Shown piece by piece: positions 23,008 to 63,776 of a DNA stretch of 64,000 nt. Source of the stretch: Blastocatellia bacterium (GTDB lineage Bacteria > Acidobacteriota > Blastocatellia > UBA7656 > JADIYM01). The notes below the pieces were generated by a model that saw only the letters and a list, made by a program, of their open reading frames with translations, searched no databases and was not told where the DNA came from. Position 1 is the stretch's first letter. Each line of letters starts with the position of its first letter. The DNA lies in contig JAJTWZ010000005.1 in the NCBI GenBank assembly GCA_021463145.1, positions 62,001 to 126,000 on the forward strand, given 5' to 3'. Both the position numbers and the translations under genes were made by a program.

Positions 23008-23349
23008 ATGAGCCAGACTGGCGCCGATACCGCAGCGATACAGAAAGTTATTCTTCGCGCAGCCGCCGCCGCAGTGAGCGGTGCACCGCTGCAGCGGTTC
23101 CCGAACGAGACAGCTGAAAGCGTCAACGATGCATTCGTTCAGGCCCTCGGGATGATCTCGCGATCGGCCAGGCTCGAAGCCATCGTCGAAGCATCGAAGC
23201 CGATCGCGGCGCGACTGGCGTCGATGCCGATCGAGGGCGACAGCGAAAACGCCGAAGGATTCCGAAGCGACGTACAGCACCTTCTTGCTGCGATTGCCGC
23301 CCTGCACGCGTTCGATCATCGCGAAGCGGATCACACGATCACTGACTGA
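23008..23349 (+). CDS. Hypothetical protein, 113 residues
   Basis: A small, Ala-rich, predicted all-helical soluble protein with no recognised domain (AAIQKVILRAAAAAVSGAP, DVQHLLAAIAALHAFDHRE). GGAGGGG is correctly spaced before ATG 23008, and a TATACT box precedes it, so expression looks genuine. It ends in a His/Asp-rich tail. Function unknown; it stands alone and converges on the LTxxQ-repeat gene. Confidence 0.65.
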   Translation: MSQTGADTAAIQKVILRAAAAAVSGAPLQRFPNETAESVNDAFVQALGMISRSARLEAIVEASKPIAARLASMPIEGDSENAEGFRSDVQHLLAAIAALHAFDHREADHTITD

Positions 23350-23364
23350 TCCGGTGTTGGCCGC

Positions 23365-23393
23365 GCCGTAACCCACGTTCCCGGGGCTACGGC
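23365..23393. terminator. Small inverted repeat between convergent genes
   Basis: GCCGTA (23365-23370) and TACGGC (23388-23393) can pair. The position between convergent genes suggests a shared terminator, but there is no T-run. Confidence 0.3.
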
Positions 23394-24655
23394 TGATTCG
23401 GAGTTTTCCTGCTCGCCGTGGCCACGAGCTTCGCGAGCTGCTGCCCGGTCAGCGTGTCGGCAACCGATCTCGTGATGCGGTCGTGCTCGGTCTGAAGCAC
23501 AGCTCCGACCTTCCGCAACTTGTCGCGCACTCCCGCCAACTCCATCGACTGCGGATCCCCTCCCTTCATCTGATCGCGCAACTCCTTCGCCTCCTGCCTC
23601 TCTTCCCGGGTGGCTCTGTTGAACCCGAAGAGCGCCTCGCGAAGCCGCGCCTGCTGCTGGGGCGTCACGTCGTCGAGTTCACGGATCCGCTCCGGCGTAA
23701 AGACGATCCCGCGCGGCGGCCCTGGCGCGCTCGCCGCCAGCTCATCGAGTTGGTCAGCCGTGAGCACCGTCTTCAACTCCTCGTACGCCTTTTCCTCGCG
23801 GGCGTTGACCCGCTGAGCTACCTCGCGCCGTTCGGATCGGCGCGATCCGGAATCCGCCGCCGGCGGCAGGTCGCGATCGCCGTTGAGGGCCTTGAGCCGA
23901 GCCCTGTCAGCGCCATTCTCGTCTTCGAGGGCGGCATAGATCGCACGCACACGGGCCTCCTGCTCGAGCGTTAGTGAAGGCAGCCTGAAGACGATCTTTT
24001 CGCGCAGTCCAACCATCTTCAGCGAGTCCGGCAGAAAGCGCTTCACTGCCAGCATCTGGTCCTGGGTGAGCAATGCTTCGGTCACCTCGAAGAGCGCCTG
24101 ACGACGCTGGCGCTGGGCCGACCGTTCCTTCTCGCGCGCCTGCACGTCCGCCGGAGCCGCACCGGCGTCTCCACGACGGCGGCCGAACCCTCCAGAGTCA
24201 GCCGCTTCTTTGCGGGCCTCGCCGAGCAGGGAGCCGTAAATCGCGTCGAGTTTCGCGCGGCGGCCAGCCTCCAGGTCGGGGAGTGCCACGATCGCGTAAT
24301 ATACGATCTCCTCGACGGACAGCGGCCCGCGAGGCTCTTTCCGGGCGAGCTCGAGCTGTTCGGGCGTCACGACCGCCGTGATCCGGCGCTGCGCCTCGGC
24401 CATCGCAAAGGCCCTCTCTCGCCTGCCGGCGCCGTCGTCTCGAGCGTCCCGCATCTCGCGGATCAGCTCGACCTGCAGGGCGCTCATTCGAAGCCGCTGC
24501 TCCATCGTCAGCGTCCGCACTCTCCACACTTGTGACGGGGTGACGCCGGCTGGGCCGAACTGAGCTGCGCGCTCACGGAAGAACCGCTGTTTCGCCATGA
24601 CCACAACCGGCGAAACGAGGAGGATGACGAGGAACCCGAAGACGATGCGTTTCAT
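23387..24655 (-). CDS. Secreted protein with multiple LTxxQ-like motifs
   Basis: 422 residues with an N-terminal signal peptide (hydrophobic core about 5-20, ending near VVMAKQ). The mature part is charged and helical. It carries at least six LTxxQ-type motifs (LTMEQ, VTPEQ, LTQDQ, LTLEQ, LTADQ, VTPQQ, LTGQQ), the hallmark of the Spy/CpxP periplasmic chaperone family, whose members have about two in 150 residues. It looks like a several-fold repeated Spy-like protein. It is the last gene after DUF1800 and DUF1501 on the same strand, so it may support that export system; this is inference. GGGAG precedes the ATG. Confidence 0.75.
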   Translation of the reverse strand: MKRIVFGFLVILLVSPVVVMAKQRFFRERAAQFGPAGVTPSQVWRVRTLTMEQRLRMSALQVELIREMRDARDDGAGRRERAFAMAEAQRRITAVVTPEQLELARKEPRGPLSVEEIVYYAIVALPDLEAGRRAKLDAIYGSLLGEARKEAADSGGFGRRRGDAGAAPADVQAREKERSAQRQRRQALFEVTEALLTQDQMLAVKRFLPDSLKMVGLREKIVFRLPSLTLEQEARVRAIYAALEDENGADRARLKALNGDRDLPPAADSGSRRSERREVAQRVNAREEKAYEELKTVLTADQLDELAASAPGPPRGIVFTPERIRELDDVTPQQQARLREALFGFNRATREERQEAKELRDQMKGGDPQSMELAGVRDKLRKVGAVLQTEHDRITRSVADTLTGQQLAKLVATASRKTPNQP

Positions 24656-24822
24656 GACTACTCCCGTGTTGTCCGAAATCGCCGTGCACTGCGTACGGCA
24701 GTTGGAGCAAGAGCCCCGGGCTCACGCCGTTCCACGGATAGTCCGTGGCCGCTTCGTACGCCGCGAGCCGGAGCTCCTGATCGAACCGCCCACGCGACGG
24801 ACCGGAGTCCGCCACGCACGGC

Positions 24823-26019
24823 TCAGAAAAGACCGAGCGGCGTGATGCCGCGAAACACAGCCGATGGATCGCCGCCGAGACAGTCGCGCACGATCCCGCC
24901 GAAAACAGATCGAAAATCCGTGGTGAACCGAAGGTTGCCGCTGTCGAGCGACGTGAGCGACGGCGCTTCGCCGTGCAATCCGCCTCGCACTCCTTCCCCG
25001 ATCACGAAGACCGGGCCAGCCGAGCCGTGATCGGTTCCACCGCCAAAGTTCTCCGCCGGCCGGCGCCCGAACTCCGAATAGACGACCGTCACGACCTTCC
25101 TGGCGAGCCCGCGGCGCTCGAGGTCCTGCTGGAACGCCGCAAATGCGCTCCCGACCTGGTTGAGCAGTTGCCGGTGCTTGCCCATCTGATTCACGTGAGT
25201 ATCGAACCCACCGAACGAAATATGGAGGACTTCGACGCCGACGCCTGCCGCCAGCAACTCGGCAGCACGACGAAGGTCCGCCGACAGCTCTCCTGGCGGG
25301 TAGTTCACGGCGCTTTCGCCGCGCAGGCGCGAAATCGTCGTCGCGGCGTCGAGCGTCTCGATACCCGCCGCACCGACGACGTGCCTGGTTGCCGGCTGCT
25401 TCACATAAGCGGAGTACATCGCACGGATGGCGGCCTCGTTGGACGGCGGACGGAAGCTCGCCGGATCGCTTACGGTGACGGCGGGCGACGACGACGATGC
25501 GAGGACGAGCGGAGGCTGTTCCTTGCTGAGCGCAACCGCGCGCAGTCCGCGTCCCGACGCCGACTCGTCGAGGTACCGGCCGATCCATCCCGACGCGCCG
25601 CCATTCGGATCGCCTGCTTCCCAGATCTCGGTCGCCCGAAAGTGCGAGAAGTCGGGATTCGGATAGCCGACACCCTGCACGACCGCAAGCTGGCCGCGCT
25701 CGTACAGTTTCCGAAAGCCGCCGAGTGCCGGATGGAACGCCATCCCCCGATCGATCGAGAGAACGTCGGACTTCGCCAGCGCCAGCGCGGGCCGCAGCTT
25801 CGCGTAAGCGGGATCGCCGATCGGGACGACGGTGTTCAGTCCGTCGTTGCCACCGGCGAGGTGGACCATGACAAGAGCCCGTCGCGCCGCCGGATCGAGT
25901 CCGGGATCAATGGCGGAGAGGCGGCCCCCCGCCTGCACGATCCGCGATCCCACCACCGCGAACGCGGGAAGCGTGAAGAGACCTTTCACAACGCTTCGTC
26001 GATCGATTCGATTACTCAT
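24823..26019 (-). CDS. DUF1501 family exported protein
   Basis: 398 residues with a Tat-like signal (DRRSVVKGLFTLPAFAVVG). It contains the DUF1501 segments LVMVHLAGGNDGLNTVVP, FHPALGGFRKLYERGQLAVVQGVGYPNPDFSHF, FGGFDTHVNQMGKH, VVYSEFGRRPAENFGGGTDHGSAGPVFVIGE. These belong to the alkaline-phosphatase/sulfatase superfamily, and the His/Asp-rich segments could bind metal. The family's substrate is unknown. It directly follows the DUF1800 gene (13 bases), the usual pairing. GGAG lies about 8 bases before ATG 26019. Confidence 0.9.
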   Translation of the reverse strand: MSNRIDRRSVVKGLFTLPAFAVVGSRIVQAGGRLSAIDPGLDPAARRALVMVHLAGGNDGLNTVVPIGDPAYAKLRPALALAKSDVLSIDRGMAFHPALGGFRKLYERGQLAVVQGVGYPNPDFSHFRATEIWEAGDPNGGASGWIGRYLDESASGRGLRAVALSKEQPPLVLASSSSPAVTVSDPASFRPPSNEAAIRAMYSAYVKQPATRHVVGAAGIETLDAATTISRLRGESAVNYPPGELSADLRRAAELLAAGVGVEVLHISFGGFDTHVNQMGKHRQLLNQVGSAFAAFQQDLERRGLARKVVTVVYSEFGRRPAENFGGGTDHGSAGPVFVIGEGVRGGLHGEAPSLTSLDSGNLRFTTDFRSVFGGIVRDCLGGDPSAVFRGITPLGLF

Positions 26020-26032
26020 CGCAATGCTCCGG

Positions 26033-27223
26033 TCAATTCAACTGAAACTCAGGCGACGCGAGCGCCAGGGTGACACGATCCGCCGCGCCTGCGCTGGCAA
26101 GCACGCCGGCGACTTCGGCGGGCGTGCGGCCGTCGAACGCAAGGCCGATGGTTTCGTCAACTGCCCGGGCCTCGGCAGCGAGGCGCGCCGCGAATCGCAT
26201 TCGCTCGAGCAGCGCGCCGGCCGACAGCCAGGCTCCCCCTCCGTCCCAACCCTTCACGGTCGGGGGCGCGAAAAGCGTCTGGCCCATTCGTCCCATCGAT
26301 TCCACGGCCCAGGAAGGCGTCGCCCCGATGCCCGCAACCTTGAGGGCGCCGACGACGAACTCCGCTGGGCTCTTTATCAGCGCCCGGTAGGAAGCATCCG
26401 ACCGGAACGCCGGCGCGAGCAGGATGTGCCGGACCACGTCCGCTATCGAGCCCTTCGACTTCGTGAATACCGCAGCCGCCGCGGCGACATCCGATGCCTG
26501 CGGTTCAGGGTGAGAGAGGAAGGCCACGAGCTTTCGCGATATGAACCTGGCGCATTCAGGACGCGACGTGACGATCCGGACGATGTCGTCGCCGTCGAAC
26601 GCCCCTGTTTCTCCCAGCACCGTTTTGGGTCCTGGATCGTGGTACTCCTGACGAAACTTGAAAACGCCGCTCTCGGCGCCCCATCCCGTGAATGCGCGCG
26701 CCGCCTCGCGCACATCGCGCTCTGTGTAGTTCCCGCGGCCGATCGTGAACAACTCCATCAGCTCGCGCGCATAGTTCTCGTTAGGTGCGCCCTTGCGATT
26801 CGAGTTCCCATCCAGCCATCGGATCATCGCCGGATCGCGACTTACACTTGCCACGAGCGCGGGAAACGTTCCGGCGCCTGCGGACCGGAACAACGCCACC
26901 TGCTTCCACATCAGCTTCGGGTCTTCGACCTTCCGGACCGAGGTCGCGAAGTGGCCGTGCCAGAACAGCGCGAGTTTCTCGGCGAGAGGCGAGGCGCTGG
27001 TTCGCATGCGGTCGACCCACGCCGCAGCGGCCGCGCCAGGTGCGTATACGCTGAATCCCGGCGGATCGGCAGATGGCGGTGCGGCCAGCCCGCTGACCAG
27101 GCGATCCACGGCCCGCTCGAAGCCGAGCGCGGCATACGAATCAAGTTCGGATCGAGAAGGACCAAATCCCGTGCGGCGGAGAAGGTGTGCGATCTCGCGG
27201 GTTGATGTGGATTTCGACGTCAT
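26033..27223 (-). CDS. DUF1800 family protein
   Basis: 396 residues. Typical DUF1800 landmarks: IAHLLRRTGFGPSRSELD at the N terminus, WVDRMRTSASPLAEKLALFWHGHFATS, NYARELMELFTIG, FTGWG, and a C-terminal VKGWDGGGAWLSAGALLERM. No signal peptide is obvious. The function is unknown; members are almost always paired with DUF1501, as here, and are thought to act together outside the cytoplasm. GGGAGG lies 9 bases before the ATG. An operon with DUF1501 and the LTxxQ gene is likely. Confidence 0.9.
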   Translation of the reverse strand: MTSKSTSTREIAHLLRRTGFGPSRSELDSYAALGFERAVDRLVSGLAAPPSADPPGFSVYAPGAAAAAWVDRMRTSASPLAEKLALFWHGHFATSVRKVEDPKLMWKQVALFRSAGAGTFPALVASVSRDPAMIRWLDGNSNRKGAPNENYARELMELFTIGRGNYTERDVREAARAFTGWGAESGVFKFRQEYHDPGPKTVLGETGAFDGDDIVRIVTSRPECARFISRKLVAFLSHPEPQASDVAAAAAVFTKSKGSIADVVRHILLAPAFRSDASYRALIKSPAEFVVGALKVAGIGATPSWAVESMGRMGQTLFAPPTVKGWDGGGAWLSAGALLERMRFAARLAAEARAVDETIGLAFDGRTPAEVAGVLASAGAADRVTLALASPEFQLN

Positions 27224-27301
27224 TCCCGGTGCCTCCCTGTTCCGGGGCTTCAGACGCCGAACGGAAAGAGAAAGTTTGGAGGCGAGCCGTACGTGATTCC
27301 T

Positions 27302-28174
27302 TTACCCGCCCTCGCCCTTTCCTCGCGACCAGTCCACCTCGGGCGCTTCGGTGTGCAGAACCCGCTGCTTCTCCAATTCCGCAATGCGGCGCGCGACGTA
27401 GTCGGCTTCCTCTGGCTCCTCGATTCGCCTGAGTGTCGCCACGGCCTCGTCGAACCGGAACATATCGGCGAAAGTCTCGCTCAGACTCTTGAGCGCCATG
27501 CGCCGCACCGCCGCGTCCGAGGTGGAAGCGATCACGCGCTCGTACAGGGGCACCGCCACTTCGCCACGCGAACGCACCTTTGCAGCGATCGATGCGAGCC
27601 TGAGCAGCGCCTGCTCGGTCAGTTCGTCGTACGACGCGTTCTCGACGACCTTCGCGTACTCGATATCGGCCTGATCGTAGTCTTCGAGCCGGTAGTAGAG
27701 ATCCGCGATAGTCGACCGAATCTTCCTCCAGCCGGGAGGATTCGGATGCTCGACGAGCAGCATCTCGTACTGCGCGATCGCTTCTCGCAGGTTCTTCAGC
27801 TCGACGTTCACCTCGGCCAGCCTCTCGCGCGCTTCATATGCCCCGGCGCCCGTCGGGAACGCCTCGAGGTAGGCCGCATAGTGTTTCCGCGCTTGTTCGT
27901 ACTCCTTGAGGTTGTGGTAGTAGACGCCGGCCAGCGTGAATCGGGCGTCCGCCTCCTCGTCGCCGCCAGGGTTCGTAGCCAGGTACTCCTCGTACGCCTG
28001 CGCGGAGGCAACGTAATCCTGGTCGCGCCAGGCCTCGCGGGCTCGCGCGAGGGGCGGTTCGGCCGATGCCCCGCACCCCGCGTTGAGAGTTCCGAGGAGG
28101 ATCAGGCCTGCGAGCACCGCGCCGGCGCGACGCCGGCCGGGCACGGGTTGGCCATCCCCTCTCCAAGTCCGCAT
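27302..28174 (-). CDS. TPR-repeat lipoprotein (BamD/YbgF-like)
   Basis: 290 residues. A basic N terminus and hydrophobic stretch end in LLGTLNAGCGASAEP, consistent with a lipoprotein signal and lipidated Cys34. At least five tetratricopeptide-like helix pairs follow (DYVASAQAYEEYLATNPGGDEE, YEQARKHYAAYLEAFPTGAGAYEAR, LREAIAQYEMLL, DYDQADIEYAKVV, VPLYERVIA). This organisation is shared by BamD and related outer-membrane assembly or cell-division lipoproteins, but the exact partner cannot be named. The ATG has GGGGAG about 9 bases upstream and follows gyrA by 18 bases. Confidence 0.82.
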   Translation of the reverse strand: MRTWRGDGQPVPGRRRAGAVLAGLILLGTLNAGCGASAEPPLARAREAWRDQDYVASAQAYEEYLATNPGGDEEADARFTLAGVYYHNLKEYEQARKHYAAYLEAFPTGAGAYEARERLAEVNVELKNLREAIAQYEMLLVEHPNPPGWRKIRSTIADLYYRLEDYDQADIEYAKVVENASYDELTEQALLRLASIAAKVRSRGEVAVPLYERVIASTSDAAVRRMALKSLSETFADMFRFDEAVATLRRIEEPEEADYVARRIAELEKQRVLHTEAPEVDWSRGKGEGG

Positions 28175-53025: not shown

Positions 53026-54951
53026 ATGGATGAGATCCGGCCGAACCTGTCCGACATGCTCGACGCCCATCGTCGCGAGCGCGAACAGCTCGCGTGGGAG
53101 GGCTCGTTCCGTGACTACTTCGAGCTCGTCACGCAGAATCCGCGCCTGGCCCAACTCTCCCACGCCCGCATCTCCGAGATGGTTCTCGCCGGGGGAGTCG
53201 ACAAGATCAACGAGGGCTCGCGCGACGAGCTGCGCCGCTATCGCTTCTTCGCCGACGACCTGTACGGCATCGAGGAGTCGATCGAGCAGATCGTCGAGTA
53301 CTTCAAGTCCGCCGCACAGCGCCTCGAAGTGCGCAAGCGAATCCTCCTGTTGATGGGTCCGGTCGGCGGCGGCAAGTCGACGATCGTCACGCTACTCAAG
53401 CGCGGGCTCGAGTCGTGGACGCGGCGGGCGGACGGCGCCGTCTTCGCCATCAAGGGCTGTCCTATGCGCGAAGAGCCGCTCCACCTCATCCCGCAGGAAC
53501 TGCGCGCCGAGATCGAACGCCACTACGGCCTCTACATCGAGGGCGAGCTCTGCCCGCAGTGCCGCTACAGCCTCGAAAACACGTTCCACGGCCATCACGA
53601 AGACGTGCTGGTGGAACGCGTCGTGTTCTCCGAAAAGGACCGCGTCGGCATCGGCACCTTCGCGCCGTCCGATCCCAAGAGCCAGGACCTTTCGGAGCTC
53701 ACCGGCTCGATCGACCTGGCGACGATCGGCGAAGTCGGCGTCGAGTCCGATCCCCGCGCGTACCGCTTCGACGGCGAGCTGAACGTCGCGAACCGGGGCC
53801 TCATGGAATTCATCGAGCTGCTGAAGTGCGACGAGCGCTTCCTCTATTCCCTGCTGACGCTATCGCAGGAACAGTCGATCAAGACCGGCCGCTTCGCGAT
53901 GATCTACGCCGACGAAGTCATCGTTTCGCACACCAACGAGAACGAGTACAACGCGTTTGCGGCGAACCGGAAGAGCGAAGCGCTGCAGGACCGGATCATC
54001 ATGATCAAGGTCCCCTACAACCTGAAGGTCTCGCAGGAAGAGCGCATCTACCGGAAACTGCTGCGGCAGTCCGATGGGCTGAACGCCGTCCATATCAGCC
54101 CTAACACCCTCAAGGTCGCCGCTGTCTTCGCCGTAATGACGCGGCTCGAGGAGCCGAAGCGCGCGAACATCGACATCGTGAAGAAGCTGAAGCTCTACGA
54201 TGGCGAGGACGTCGAAGGCTTCAAGTCGAAGGACGTCCGTGAGCTTCGCGAAGAGACCGAACGCGAAGGCATGGACGGAATCTCGCCGCGCTACATCATC
54301 AATCGCCTCTCGGGCGCGCTCGTGCGCGACGGCGCGCGCTGCATCAATCCGATCGACGCCCTGCGGGCGATCAAGAACGGCTTCGACCAGCACACGGGGA
54401 TATCCGTCGAGCAGCGCGAGCGATACCTGAACCTCATCGCGACCGCCCGCCGCGAATACGACGAGATCGCGAAAAACGAGGTGCAACGCGCGTTCGTCTA
54501 CAGCTTCGAGGAGATGGCGAAGCATATGTGCGAGAACTACCTCGACAACGTCGAGGCGTTCTGCAACAAGGACCGCCTGAAGGATCCGATCACCGAGGAC
54601 GAGCTCGAACCGGACGAACGGCTCATGAGATCGATCGAGGAGCAGATCGGCGTGTCCGATACGTCCAAGAACACGTTCCGGCAGGAGATCCTCATCCGCA
54701 TCTCTTCGTATGCGCGGAAGGGAAAACCGTTCGACTATCGGGCGCACGACCGTCTGCGTGAAGCAATCGAGAAGAAGATCTTCAGCGACCTGAAGGACGT
54801 CGTGAAGATCACGACGTCTACCAAGACGCCGGACGCGGACCAGGTGAGAAGGATCAACGAGGTCGTGGACCGGCTCGTCGACGAGCACGGCTATTGCAAG
54901 ATCTGCGCGAACGAGTTGCTGACTTACGTGGGGTCATTGTTGTCGAGGTAG
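53026..54951 (+). CDS. prkA: PrkA-family Ser protein kinase (AAA-like)
   Basis: 641 residues, the family's usual length. An N-terminal AAA-type domain with Walker A LLLMGPVGGGKSTIV near residue 108 is followed by Cys-rich LCPQCRYSLE and the PrkA C-terminal kinase-like region (YIINRLSGALVRDG, RISSYARKGKPFDYRAHDRLREAIEKK, CANELL near the end). The family includes E. coli YeaG and B. subtilis PrkA, tied to nitrogen-stress adaptation or sporulation. GAGG lies about 8 bases before ATG 53026. It is the first gene of the conserved prkA-yhbH-spoVR cluster, behind a leader with a terminator. Confidence 0.93.
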   Translation: MDEIRPNLSDMLDAHRREREQLAWEGSFRDYFELVTQNPRLAQLSHARISEMVLAGGVDKINEGSRDELRRYRFFADDLYGIEESIEQIVEYFKSAAQRLEVRKRILLLMGPVGGGKSTIVTLLKRGLESWTRRADGAVFAIKGCPMREEPLHLIPQELRAEIERHYGLYIEGELCPQCRYSLENTFHGHHEDVLVERVVFSEKDRVGIGTFAPSDPKSQDLSELTGSIDLATIGEVGVESDPRAYRFDGELNVANRGLMEFIELLKCDERFLYSLLTLSQEQSIKTGRFAMIYADEVIVSHTNENEYNAFAANRKSEALQDRIIMIKVPYNLKVSQEERIYRKLLRQSDGLNAVHISPNTLKVAAVFAVMTRLEEPKRANIDIVKKLKLYDGEDVEGFKSKDVRELREETEREGMDGISPRYIINRLSGALVRDGARCINPIDALRAIKNGFDQHTGISVEQRERYLNLIATARREYDEIAKNEVQRAFVYSFEEMAKHMCENYLDNVEAFCNKDRLKDPITEDELEPDERLMRSIEEQIGVSDTSKNTFRQEILIRISSYARKGKPFDYRAHDRLREAIEKKIFSDLKDVVKITTSTKTPDADQVRRINEVVDRLVDEHGYCKICANELLTYVGSLLSR

Positions 54952-55116
54952 CAGTTGAATGAGCTCGCGCAACGGCGCGAGGGAGCAGTGGCAGGGACGG
55001 GCGCAACGCCGCGAGGCCGAGGGATCCGGGACGCCGATGGCGCCAGCGTCCGTCCGGCTCCAATTCGCCGGTGCGCCGTTACGCGACGGAACCTCTCGGA
55101 CCGATCGAGGATTCAC

Positions 55117-56283
55117 ATGGGCGTTCAACGCAATGACTGGAGCCTCCAACGTAAGGGCCAGATCGACCAGGACCGCCACGCGGAGCGCGTTCGCGACGCC
55201 ATTCGCCAGAACCTCGGCTCCATCGTCTCGAACGAGTCGATAATCCTCGCCGACGGCCAGAAGCGGGTGAAGGTCCCGATCCGTTCGCTCGACGAGTACA
55301 AGTTCCGTTTCGACCACCGCAAGCGGAAGCACGTGGCCCAGGGCGACGGAAAGACCTCTGTCGGCGACGTCGTGGGCCACGAACCGCAGCCTTCGCAGGG
55401 CGCTGGGCGGGGCCGCCGTGCCGGCGACCAGCCTGGCGTCGACTACTTCGAGGCCGACGTCGAACTCGACGAAATCGCGCGCCTCGTTTTCGAGGATCTC
55501 CATCTGCCCAACCTCCAGGAGAAGGCGAAGCGCGAGGTGCCGTCGCGCGCCACCAGGTTCACCGAGATCCGCCGCACCGGCATCATGTCGAATCTCGACA
55601 AACGCAGGTCGCTCGTGGAGAACATCCGCCGCCAGGCGCGCGAAACCGGCCGCGCACACCTCGGACCGTTTCGCCCCGAGGACCTGCGCTACCGGACGTG
55701 GGAGGAGCAGCAGTCCTACGAGTCCAATGCAGTAGTCATCGCGATGATGGACGTTTCGGGCTCGATGGGAGAGTTCAAGAAGTACGTCGCCCGTTCGTTC
55801 TACTTCTGGATGGTGCGATTCCTTCGCACGCGCTACGACAACGTCGAGATCGTGTTCATCAGCCACCACACCGAGGCCAGGGAGGTCACCGAAGAGCAGT
55901 TCTTCACGCAGGGCGAGTCCGGCGGCACCGTCGTCAGCTCGGCCTACCGTCTCGCGCTCGACGTAATCGCGTCCCGCTTTCCGCCGCGCGACTGGAACGT
56001 GTATCCATTTCACTTCTCGGACGGCGACAACTACTACTCAGACAACGACGAGGCTGTCAGGCTCGCCGACGAGCTCGCGTCTACATGCAATCTCTTCGGC
56101 TACGGAGAGATCGGCGACGAAGAGGGTCCGGGTTACCGCCGGCAGTCCGGCGCTCTACTGTCGATATTCTCCGACCGGCTGCGCAATACCGAACGTTTCG
56201 CCGGCGTCCGTATCGACGACCGCGCCGATGTATATCCGGCACTGAAGCACTTTTTCCGGAAGCGCGGAGAGGAGATCGGCTGA
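55117..56283 (+). CDS. yhbH: YhbH/YeaH-family protein (DUF444) with VWA-type domain
   Basis: 388 residues. The N-terminal third carries DUF444 features ([38 protein letters not shown]). The C-terminal half is a von Willebrand factor A-type fold with a metal-ion site [13 protein letters not shown] and downstream [10 protein letters not shown] and [13 protein letters not shown]. Partner of PrkA in stress response; the exact biochemical role is unknown. The frame is open further upstream, but family homology begins at [14 protein letters not shown], and GAGG lies 6 bases before that ATG. The 165 bases after prkA have no other gene. Confidence 0.9.
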
Positions 56284-56284
56284 A

Positions 56285-57625
56285 ATGGATCGCGAAGTCG
56301 CCGAGCTCGAGCGCGCGATCGAGCGCATCTGGGAAGTCGGCCGCGCCTTCGGTCTGGATCCGTTCCCGACCAACTTCGAGATCGTGCCCTCGACGGTGAT
56401 GTACGAGATCGGGAGTTACGCACTGCCCGGCCGCTATTCGCACTGGACGTTCGGCAAGGCCTACCATCGGATGAAGACGATGTACGACTTCGGACTCTCG
56501 CGGATCTACGAGGTCGTGATCAATGCGAATCCGTCCTACGGGTTTCTGCTCGAAACGAACTCGCCGCTGCAGAACCGGCTCGTCATCGCGCACGTGATGG
56601 GCCACGTCGACTTCTTCAAGCACAACGCCTGGTTCGCGGCGACGAACCGGCGCATGGTGGACGATGCCGCAACGCACGCGCGGCGAATTGCCGAGTATGA
56701 ATTCCAGCACGGGCGGAAAGTCGTCGAACGGTTCCTCGACGCGGTGCTCTCGATCGAGGAACACGTCGATCCGGACACGTTCCTGAAGCGGCCGGCGAAC
56801 GGCCCTCAGGCCGTCCGGGCGCCCGTGCCCGGACGGTACGACGACCTGTTCGATCCCTGCGAACTGCCTCCACCTCCGGCTGCTGCCGCTCGAATCGACG
56901 GTCCGGAACTGCCAGAAAAGGATCTGCTCGGATTCCTCGCCGCGCACTCGCCGGTGCTCGAACCCTGGCAGCGCGACGTCGTCGCGATGATCCGCGAGGA
57001 GATGCTCTACTTCGTTCCGCAGATGCGGACGAAAACGATAAACGAGGGATGGGCGAGCTTCTGGCACTCGCGGATCATGCGCGAGCTGGACCTTTCGGAC
57101 GACGAACACCTCGAATTCGCGGAACTGCACGCCGGCGTGGTTTCGCCTCACACGGGTCAGCTCAATCCGTACTTCGTCGGATATCGGATTCTGGAGGACA
57201 TCGAACGGCGGTACGGACGAGACCGGCTTTTCGAGGTGCGCGAGGTCGAGAGCGATGTGTCGCTGCTGCGGAACTACCTGACGGAAGACTTGTGCGAGGA
57301 ACTCGACCTGTTCGTCTACGAACTTGTCGACGATGAGGCGTGGACGATCACCGACAAGCGCTGGGAACGGGTCCGCGACCAGCTCGTCGCGAACATGTCC
57401 AATTTCGGGTTCCCCTACATCGAGGTCGCGGACGGCGACCATCGGGGTAACCGTGAGCTGTTTCTGAAGCACAGGTACGAGGGGTCGGAACTCGACCTTC
57501 GCTACGCGCGCAAGACACTCGAGAATTGTCAGACGCTTTGGGGGCGGCCGGTCTGGCTCGAGACAGTGGTCGACGGCGTGCCAAGAACGCTGCACTACGA
57601 CGGCAGCGATCACTCCGAGAGTTGA
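56285..57625 (+). CDS. spoVR: SpoVR family protein
   Basis: 446 residues. Typical SpoVR segments: [62 protein letters not shown] with clustered His, [58 protein letters not shown]. Originally a spore-cortex protein in Bacillus; in non-sporulating bacteria it accompanies PrkA and YhbH in stress response. It starts one base after the yhbH stop. No sporulation genes are present, so a general stress or nutrient role is more likely. Confidence 0.93.
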
Positions 57626-61991: not shown

Positions 61992-63776
61992 CTACCGCGC
62001 CGGCCTTGCGTCCTTGATCACGAGTTGAGGGCGCGCCACGCCCTGCCATTCGTTCACGCTGCACGTCGCAAGCAGGTCGAGCCGGCTCCCGAGGGCGCAA
62101 TCGCCCGCGAACTGAGCGCCGTCCCACCATACCGCCTCCACGGTGCCGGCCTCCTCGCCCGCGATCACCAGTTTCAGGTGACGGTCCTTCATGATCGTCA
62201 CGCGTCGAACCATCGCCGCTTCAACCAGGAAAACAGGGCGAGGATTGCCGATGCCGTGCGGCTCGAGGCGCAACAACTCGCGCACCGCATCGATCGTCAC
62301 TTCGTCGGGTGAAAGGGATGCGTCCGCCCGGAAGCGGGGCAGGAGGTCTTCGTCTCCATCCACACGCGCCGACACGTACTCGAAGAGTCGCGCTTCGAGC
62401 GCCCCGATCTTTTCTCGCTCGACCGTGAACCCGGCGGCCGCGCGATGTCCACCGAACTTCACGAGCAGATCCGCCGCCGACTCGAGGGCCTCGACGAGGT
62501 GAATGCCGTTCGCCGTGCGCGCGCTACCGCGCCCGACTCCGTCCGCGTCGAACGCGACGATGAACGCCGGGCGGTTCATCGCGTCGACTACTTTCGACGC
62601 CACGATCCCGACGACGCCACGATGCCAGCCGTCCGATTCGTCACCGGCAAAGAGCGCGACCATTGGCGTCGCTTTCAGTCCTCGAATTTCGTCCATTACG
62701 CGCTCGACGAGCCGTTGCTGCACCTCCTGCCGCTCGCCGTTCAAACGGTTGAGCTCTCGCGCGAGCTCCATCGCGGATTCGGAATCCCTGGCGTTGAAGA
62801 GCTCGATGACCGTCGATGCGGCCGCAAGCCGGCCGGCAGCGTTGATCCGGGGGCCAAGCTTGTAGCCACAGTCGGTAGCCGTCACCGCTCGACCTCCGAG
62901 TCCCGAGACTTCCAGCAGCGCCGCGAGTCCGGGGTTTCGGGACGGCTGCGACAGCCCGGCGAGACCGGCCGAGACGATCGCGCGATTCTCGAGGTCGTCC
63001 AGTTCCACCATGTCGGCGACTGTGCCGATCGCCGCAAGCTTCACCAGGGACGCAATTACGTCCGCGCGCCGCGGATGATCGGCGAGCAGTGCCTGGGCGA
63101 CCTTCAGAGACAGTCCGCACGCCGCGAGAAAACTGTTTGGATAGTTGCAGTTGTCCTGTTTCGGACAGAGCACCGCGAGAGCGCGCGAAGGCACGTCCTC
63201 GCCGGGCGGCAAGTGGTGATCGCAGATAATGACGTCGATTCCCAGTTCGGCAGCCCGGTCGACGGCCGCGTGATCGCGGACGCCGATGTCGCACGTCACC
63301 ACGATCTGGGCCCCGTCGAGTGCCGCCCGCTCCGCCGCGGCCACGCTGAACCCATAGCCTTCGTCGAACCGGCTCGGGATGTGGTAGCTGACGCGGTCGC
63401 CGGCGCCAAGCAGCCTGAGCGAGTGTTGCAGTATGACCGACGCGGTCGTCCCGTCCACGTCATAGTCCGAAACGATTCGAATCCGCTCACCCCCGTCGAG
63501 CGCCCGGCGCAGCCGGTCGACAGCTCGATCCATTCCGAACATCGCGAAAGGGTCGTGTAGATGCCGGTCGAGCGAAGGACTGAGGAACTCCCCGGCGCGC
63601 TCGGTGTCGGACAGGCCCCGGCCGAGGAGTATTCGGGCCACCGGCGACGGCACGTCGAGCTCGCGTGAGAGCCTCAGAACAGCACGCTCATCTGCTTCGG
63701 CGAGTTCCCAGCGGGCTTGGCGGAAGGAAGTCATGCGTGAATCGAGAGCGCGGGAGACGTCAGCATTAGTGTTCAT
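61992..63776 (-). CDS. recJ: Single-stranded-DNA-specific exonuclease RecJ
   Basis: 594 residues. 5'-3' exonuclease of recombinational and mismatch repair. The DHH phosphoesterase motifs are intact: VSDYDVDGTTAS (Asp104, 106, 108), Asp163 in TCDIGVRDH, and DHH at 186-188 in ICDHHLPPGED. The DHHA1 motif KFGGHRAAAGFTVE lies near residue 440, and an OB-like C-terminal part follows. Start ATG 63776 with AAAGG at good spacing; ATG 63734 is a shorter option without a ribosome site. It stands convergent to the SH3 gene. Confidence 0.95.
   Translation of the reverse strand: MNTNADVSRALDSRMTSFRQARWELAEADERAVLRLSRELDVPSPVARILLGRGLSDTERAGEFLSPSLDRHLHDPFAMFGMDRAVDRLRRALDGGERIRIVSDYDVDGTTASVILQHSLRLLGAGDRVSYHIPSRFDEGYGFSVAAAERAALDGAQIVVTCDIGVRDHAAVDRAAELGIDVIICDHHLPPGEDVPSRALAVLCPKQDNCNYPNSFLAACGLSLKVAQALLADHPRRADVIASLVKLAAIGTVADMVELDDLENRAIVSAGLAGLSQPSRNPGLAALLEVSGLGGRAVTATDCGYKLGPRINAAGRLAAASTVIELFNARDSESAMELARELNRLNGERQEVQQRLVERVMDEIRGLKATPMVALFAGDESDGWHRGVVGIVASKVVDAMNRPAFIVAFDADGVGRGSARTANGIHLVEALESAADLLVKFGGHRAAAGFTVEREKIGALEARLFEYVSARVDGDEDLLPRFRADASLSPDEVTIDAVRELLRLEPHGIGNPRPVFLVEAAMVRRVTIMKDRHLKLVIAGEEAGTVEAVWWDGAQFAGDCALGSRLDLLATCSVNEWQGVARPQLVIKDARPAR

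Follow-up and report, generated by a model that had tools for sequence, protein, structure and literature searches.

The 64,000-nucleotide stretch of DNA analysed here (the window; positions 62,001 to 126,000 of contig JAJTWZ010000005.1, assembly GCA_021463145.1, from a Blastocatellia bacterium of the phylum Acidobacteriota) carries three genes in a row on the minus strand, encoding a DUF1800 protein, a DUF1501 protein and a protein of 422 residues, with gaps of 13 bp and 167 bp between them. The 422-residue protein, which appears to be made of four tandem Spy-like units, is the subject of this work. Its open reading frame was chosen as the gene of its stretch, with a score of 97, by a simple gene caller based on codon usage. 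The coordinates and order of the three genes given in a preliminary description of this DNA proved correct, and the DUF1800-DUF1501 pair was confirmed by Pfam. The features of the locus are the following:

26033-27223, minus strand: DUF1800 protein (neighbour), without N-terminal hydrophobic segment (Pfam PF08811, E 2.7e-109; hydrophobicity 0.18)
24823-26019, minus strand: DUF1501 protein (neighbour), with an N-terminus, RRSVVKG, resembling a twin-arginine translocation (Tat) signal (Pfam PF07394, E 4.5e-32)
24837-24851, minus strand: weak terminator-like hairpin with a T-rich tail, over the last codons of DUF1501
24656-24822, minus strand: 167-bp gap between DUF1501 and the four-unit gene, with a perfect 7-bp hairpin at 24732-24748 (hairpin and promoter scan)
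23387-24655, minus strand: four-unit Spy/CpxP-like 422-residue protein (P0001), export probable (open reading frame, coding score, motif counts, unit profile and fold of unit 4)
24593-24655, minus strand: likely Sec signal peptide, residues 1-21, MKRIVFGFLVILLVSPVVVMA, followed by K (read from the sequence; hydrophobic segment score 2.93)

The 422-residue protein contains five strict LTxxQ motifs and eight motifs of the form [LVIM]TxxQ. In 20,000 composition shuffles of residues 22-422, these motifs occurred 0.13 and 0.26 times on average, with maxima of 3 and 4, respectively. The next-highest of the 53 genes called in the window encodes a 641-residue protein with three motifs of the looser form [LVIM]Txx[QE]. 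Hence, the count of at least six LTxxQ-like motifs in the preliminary description was upheld, eight being found, beyond all of the shuffles; its figure of about two for Spy holds for the Escherichia coli sequence. The motifs are not scattered along the chain and mark four tandem units of about 100 residues, each with two long helices flanked by short ones. With boundaries set by us, these units are:

24323-24547, minus strand: unit 1, residues 37-111, VTPSQ, LTMEQ ... VTPEQ, with a short middle (helices 40-43, 51-73, 78-95 and 98-106)
24026-24322, minus strand: unit 2, residues 112-210, LEAGR (decayed first motif) ... LTQDQ (helices 114-123, 130-153, 168-195 and 198-207)
23714-24025, minus strand: unit 3, residues 211-314, LTLEQ ... 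LTADQ (helices 217-220, 230-259, 269-297 and 300-309)
23408-23713, minus strand: unit 4, residues 315-416, VTPQQ ... LTGQQ (model of pLDDT 86, profile and fold matches)

Seven of the eight motifs either open a long helix or immediately precede the short terminal helix, in four rounds, and TxxQ caps are retained at seven of the eight bracketing positions. Both bracketing motifs are present in units 1, 3 and 4, and unit 2 keeps only the second, LEAGR replacing the first. The eighth motif, VTPSQ at residue 38, is found at the short helix that opens unit 1, off both bracketing positions. In a full-length model predicted from the single sequence, the short-long-long-short succession of helices repeats at residues 40-106, 114-207, 217-309 and 321-414. 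Similarity between units exceeded that of shuffled sequences (300 shuffles per pair) for the pairs 1-3 (z 5.2), 2-3 (z 7.4) and 3-4 (z 5.1), none of the 300 shuffles reaching the values of the first two. Copying of units 1-2 as a block into units 3-4 found mixed support (z 5.2 for 1 versus 3, z -0.7 for 2 versus 4) and is not claimed.

The affiliation of these units was then addressed with a profile built from nine Spy-like units of other proteins, which included E. coli Spy and left out the window protein. Among 1,235 called proteins, this profile ranked the 422-residue protein at E 4.9e-9, with 33.7 bits versus at most 8.8 bits in 2,000 shuffles and -14.0 when the sequence was reversed. Taken singly, units 3 and 4 matched with independent E values (i-E) of 0.0022 and 8.1e-6. 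This is in line with an hhalign comparison to eight other Spy-like units, which gave a probability of 95% and E 1.7e-8. The structure of unit 4, modelled from a four-row alignment of the units, reached a predicted local distance difference test score (pLDDT) of 86 and a predicted template modelling score (pTM) of 0.68, and in Foldseek its matches of ranks 1-15 were all CnrX, ZraP or NccX, with probabilities of 0.92-1.00. VIA-align gave Z 10.3 for CnrX, 9.0 for ZraP (1.4 Å, 75 residues), 8.7 for CpxP and 8.6 for Spy (PDB 3o39, 89 residues); because Z values below about 13 may reflect a common arrangement in helical models, the fold match alone would not settle the superfamily, and the profiles carry more weight. 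The structure prediction for repeated Spy-like units proposed in the preliminary description therefore gave, for unit 4, a Spy/CpxP/ZraP/CnrX-like predicted fold. On the evidence of sequence profiles and of the fold predicted for unit 4, the 422-residue protein is placed in the Spy/CpxP/ZraP/CnrX superfamily, and not as a member of the Pfam LTXXQ family (PF07813) as defined, whose curated cut-off of 24.3 bits it does not reach. Pfam matches to Phosphonate-bd, CYP38 PsbQ-like, DUF3106 and Sororin (E 0.023 to 0.11, below cut-offs) were set aside as chance hits of charged helices. Among PDB sequences, a profile built solely from the four units matched a ribosomal protein (E 3.6) and a V-ATPase subunit (E 5.8) and nothing else.

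Other LTxxQ proteins occur in the same genome, namely two two-unit proteins of 278 residues (L115_6) and 359 residues (L116_8) and a one-unit protein of 173 residues (L117_5). All three exceed the Pfam cut-offs, and all lie on contigs apart from the six DUF1800 matches of the genome. The four-unit profile had some match at E <= 1 in 77 of 147 genomes of the class, and the only two matches below 1e-3 outside the own genome (3.3e-5 and 6.2e-4) were one-unit LTxxQ proteins. Of 199 genomes of the phylum, 169 contained one or more matches (E <= 1e-5) to a ten-unit profile, two units of which came from the 422-residue protein. From the phylum matches listed, 20 places were picked for long frames or two hits; their six-frame translations contained two full units in eight cases (L196, L199, L200, L201, L202, L203, L206 and L208), one unit in the other 12, and three or more in none. 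The gene calls caught the gene in 16 of these places (not in L191, L192, L193 and L207), where they agreed with the six-frame counts. The two-unit relatives (L115_6, L116_8, L199_2, L200_1, L201_3, L202_0 and others) thus share with the 422-residue protein the tandem arrangement of Spy-like units in one chain and retain full Spy-like profile matches; unlike it, they have two units instead of four, and two of them, L115_6 and L116_8, score above the Pfam LTXXQ cut-off that it does not reach. Within a known tendency, four units therefore mark the upper end, seen solely here among the frames examined. What is new is the number of units; in a limited survey of the open-licence literature, we noticed no report on multi-unit Spy/CpxP proteins.

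Residues 23-422 have an isoelectric point (pI) of 9.8 and contain 56 Arg, 8 Met, one His and no Cys. E. coli Spy (NP_416257.1), which resembles each unit in its succession of motif, two long helices and motif, is likewise basic, with a pI of 9.5, five His and no Cys after removal of its first 23 residues. Spy is a one-unit protein of 161 residues, unlike the four units per chain found here; according to passages of PMC8144458, it dimerises, and its clients bind the positive concave cradle formed by the dimer. A basic chain with no Cys and one His speaks for Spy-type client binding and against metal sensing. With moderate confidence, the 422-residue protein is read as a Sec-exported four-unit member of the Spy superfamily that acts as a general envelope holdase rather than one devoted to the DUF1501/DUF1800 pair. 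It would be exported via Sec, lose its signal peptide and reside in the envelope; its signal-peptide-like start agrees with the preliminary description, in which it was called secreted. Its four domains of the superfamily fold would have arisen through internal duplication, as the two-unit relatives of the genome and phylum seem to have. Independently of ATP, its Arg-rich, positive helical hairpins could then bind a range of unfolded or aggregation-prone envelope proteins. Since the working form of Spy is a dimeric cradle, adjacent units probably pair inside the single chain. A tentative extension is that the four units form two built-in cradles. The result would be a large, multivalent holdase with no need of homodimerisation, by which long unfolded proteins of the envelope or outer membrane could be gripped; the two-unit relatives of the phylum would then be an intermediate step, as single-chain versions of the Spy dimer.

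Several results weigh against the holdase reading and the superfamily placement beneath it, in addition to the Z values mentioned above. Close homologues were matched only in the own genome among 98 genomes, and a pattern scan of genome contigs returned none; in this sampling the source genome is alone in its family, and the other seven of the eight genomes of the order form one other family. By hmmscan, neither PF07813 nor PF13801 was listed for the protein at E <= 1, and NCBIfam models and PDB sequences gave no match to it. The nine-unit profile was weak on units 1 and 2 taken singly (i-E 2.5 to 9.4), and, unlike the comparison with eight units, hhalign against E. coli Spy alone gave no significant alignment (probability 0.6%). 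The unit pairs 1-2, 1-4 and 2-4 are without significant similarity over 300 shuffles; the units are thus well diverged, and the argument for units 1 and 2 draws in part on their likeness to unit 3. As for structure, the full-length model is poor (pLDDT 61, pTM 0.32) and was not used for the fold search, no Foldseek match of unit 4 reached E <= 0.001, and other names are interspersed in its VIA-align rows, including Salmonella VirG-like (Z 9.7), T4 Vs.4 (Z 9.2) and TGA3 (Z 8.5). Finally, CnrX, among the fold matches, is termed a metal sensor, so chaperone activity is not universal in the superfamily.

Among the alternatives, an envelope spacer or scaffold, in which the four helical hairpins would serve as a rigid or elastic linker without binding clients, fares best, although it is judged unlikely. 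Tandem helical repeats, high charge and strong divergence from unit to unit are what such a linker could look like. On the other hand, the retention of TxxQ caps at the bracketing positions suggests that the hairpin fold is maintained, and the full Spy-like profile matches of the two-unit relatives point the same way.

The preliminary description proposed a periplasmic chaperone or holdase dedicated to the DUF1501/DUF1800 pair, which would make the 422-residue protein the co-transcribed third gene of an operon. Its chaperone part is plausible, because of the repeated Spy-like units and the signal-peptide-like start, whereas dedication to the pair is quite improbable. The gene does stand third in the row on the same strand; same-strand genes downstream of such pairs begin after gaps of 10-663 bp (n=58), which covers its 167-bp distance. 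Across 23300-27500, the 167-bp gap included, no sigma-70-like promoter was found, as a shared transcript would have it; against this, a weak terminator-like hairpin lies at the end of DUF1501, although this single hairpin is fewer than the 2.5 that shuffled sequences of the region yield on average. These sequence signals would favour neither a joint nor a separate transcript of the four-unit gene and the pair.

The recurrence of the association was assessed over 100 adjacent same-strand DUF1800-DUF1501 pairs in 95 loci, detected with our own gene caller and profiles. The pairs were drawn from the own genome (six, the window included), from 29 stretches of the order's seven other genomes, which took in most but not all listed DUF1501 places, from a DUF1800 scan of genome contigs (12 loci) and from a longer list for the phylum (60 stretches picked, near-repeats inside one genus being partly skipped). 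Three genes were visible on both sides in 71 of the 100 pairs, and the downstream gene in 95. DUF1800 precedes DUF1501 in 99 pairs, so that the window pair is bona fide and in the usual order; its third gene is not a recurrent one. Indeed, a Spy-like protein was found within three genes of only two pairs (combined unit profile, E < 0.01), that of the window itself and that of locus L047, where a one-unit protein of 146 residues is encoded two genes upstream. This combined profile includes the window protein's own units, and a profile without them also scores both proteins. A motif-count rule (at least four [LVIM]TxxQ in fewer than 600 residues) flagged the window alone; both rules may miss strongly diverged LTxxQ proteins. 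No Spy-like neighbour was found at the other five pairs of the genome or at the 12 loci from the DUF1800 scan. Absence of the third gene near the pair in relatives, which the preliminary description had named as telling against its proposal, is therefore what was observed. With the source genome alone in its family in this sampling, and with no DUF1800 match in other genomes above 47% identity, a coupling specific to this lineage retains some room. Besides, the Tat system transports folded proteins, as stated in a paper on bacterial chitin synthases that have DUF1501/DUF1800 genes next to them (PMC5122149), and with its Tat-like start the DUF1501 protein would have less need of a periplasmic holdase. 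A role of the four-unit gene as an accessory of the DUF1800-DUF1501 pair is thus not supported; the DUF1501 neighbour is probably not a functional partner of the four-unit protein, and their adjacency is lineage-specific and probably incidental.

The metal ligands of CnrX and ZraP are His-rich or Cys residues (His/Cys/Met clusters). A metal sensor or metal buffer of this kind has little likelihood, for although CnrX is the top fold match of unit 4, CnrX/NccX and ZraP being its best matches overall, and two other LTxxQ genes of the genome (L115 and L117) adjoin sigma-factor-like genes assigned by eye, those ligands are missing from the nearly His-free residues 23-422, and no sigma or anti-sigma gene was recognised by eye beside the 422-residue gene.

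Other features of the pair were noticed during the survey. A protein with an N-terminal hydrophobic stretch and a CxxCH motif early in its sequence is encoded directly downstream on the same strand in nine of 95 pairs under a strict rule (L068, L070, L071, L073, L134, L046, L052, L072 and L171), and by eye also at L042 and L047. These proteins mostly have 380-390 residues, with 458 at L072 and 639 at L171, and the three examined (L042, L070 and L134) match the NCBIfam choice-of-anchor V model; this is the commonest third gene noticed. Tandem double pairs with a peptide-deformylase-like gene between them, as judged by eye, occur at L046, L047, L052, L068 and L070, in five genomes of the same order. 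An RRxFL-like N-terminus was seen in the DUF1501 protein of 83 of the 100 pairs (loose pattern, no control), and an N-terminal hydrophobic segment is missing from the DUF1800 protein of 64 pairs, the window's included. DUF1800 may be exported on DUF1501 through Tat. One table entry of PMC6653060 holds both the DUF1501 and the DUF1800 names, and the passages of this paper and of PMC5122149 give no function for the pair.

Apart from the pair, a two-unit Spy-like gene lies close to a small LTxxQ gene on one strand in two genomes (L115:3924-6223 and L201:170-2490), the genes between them in L115 resembling, by eye, a sigma factor and a small regulator. These gene groups may be an envelope-stress cassette. 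Elsewhere in the window, at 53026-57625, three consecutive plus-strand genes presumably encode PrkA kinase-like, YeaH-like and SpoVR-like proteins.

The four-unit neighbour calls for caution against inferring the function of DUF1501/DUF1800 from the gene next to it, and the CxxCH choice-of-anchor V protein is a better lead. Assistance to folding without ATP has been studied extensively in Spy, where the symmetry of the dimer restricts what can be varied. Natural chains of two and four units would allow the number, linkage and asymmetry of cradles to be tested against the size and affinity of clients.

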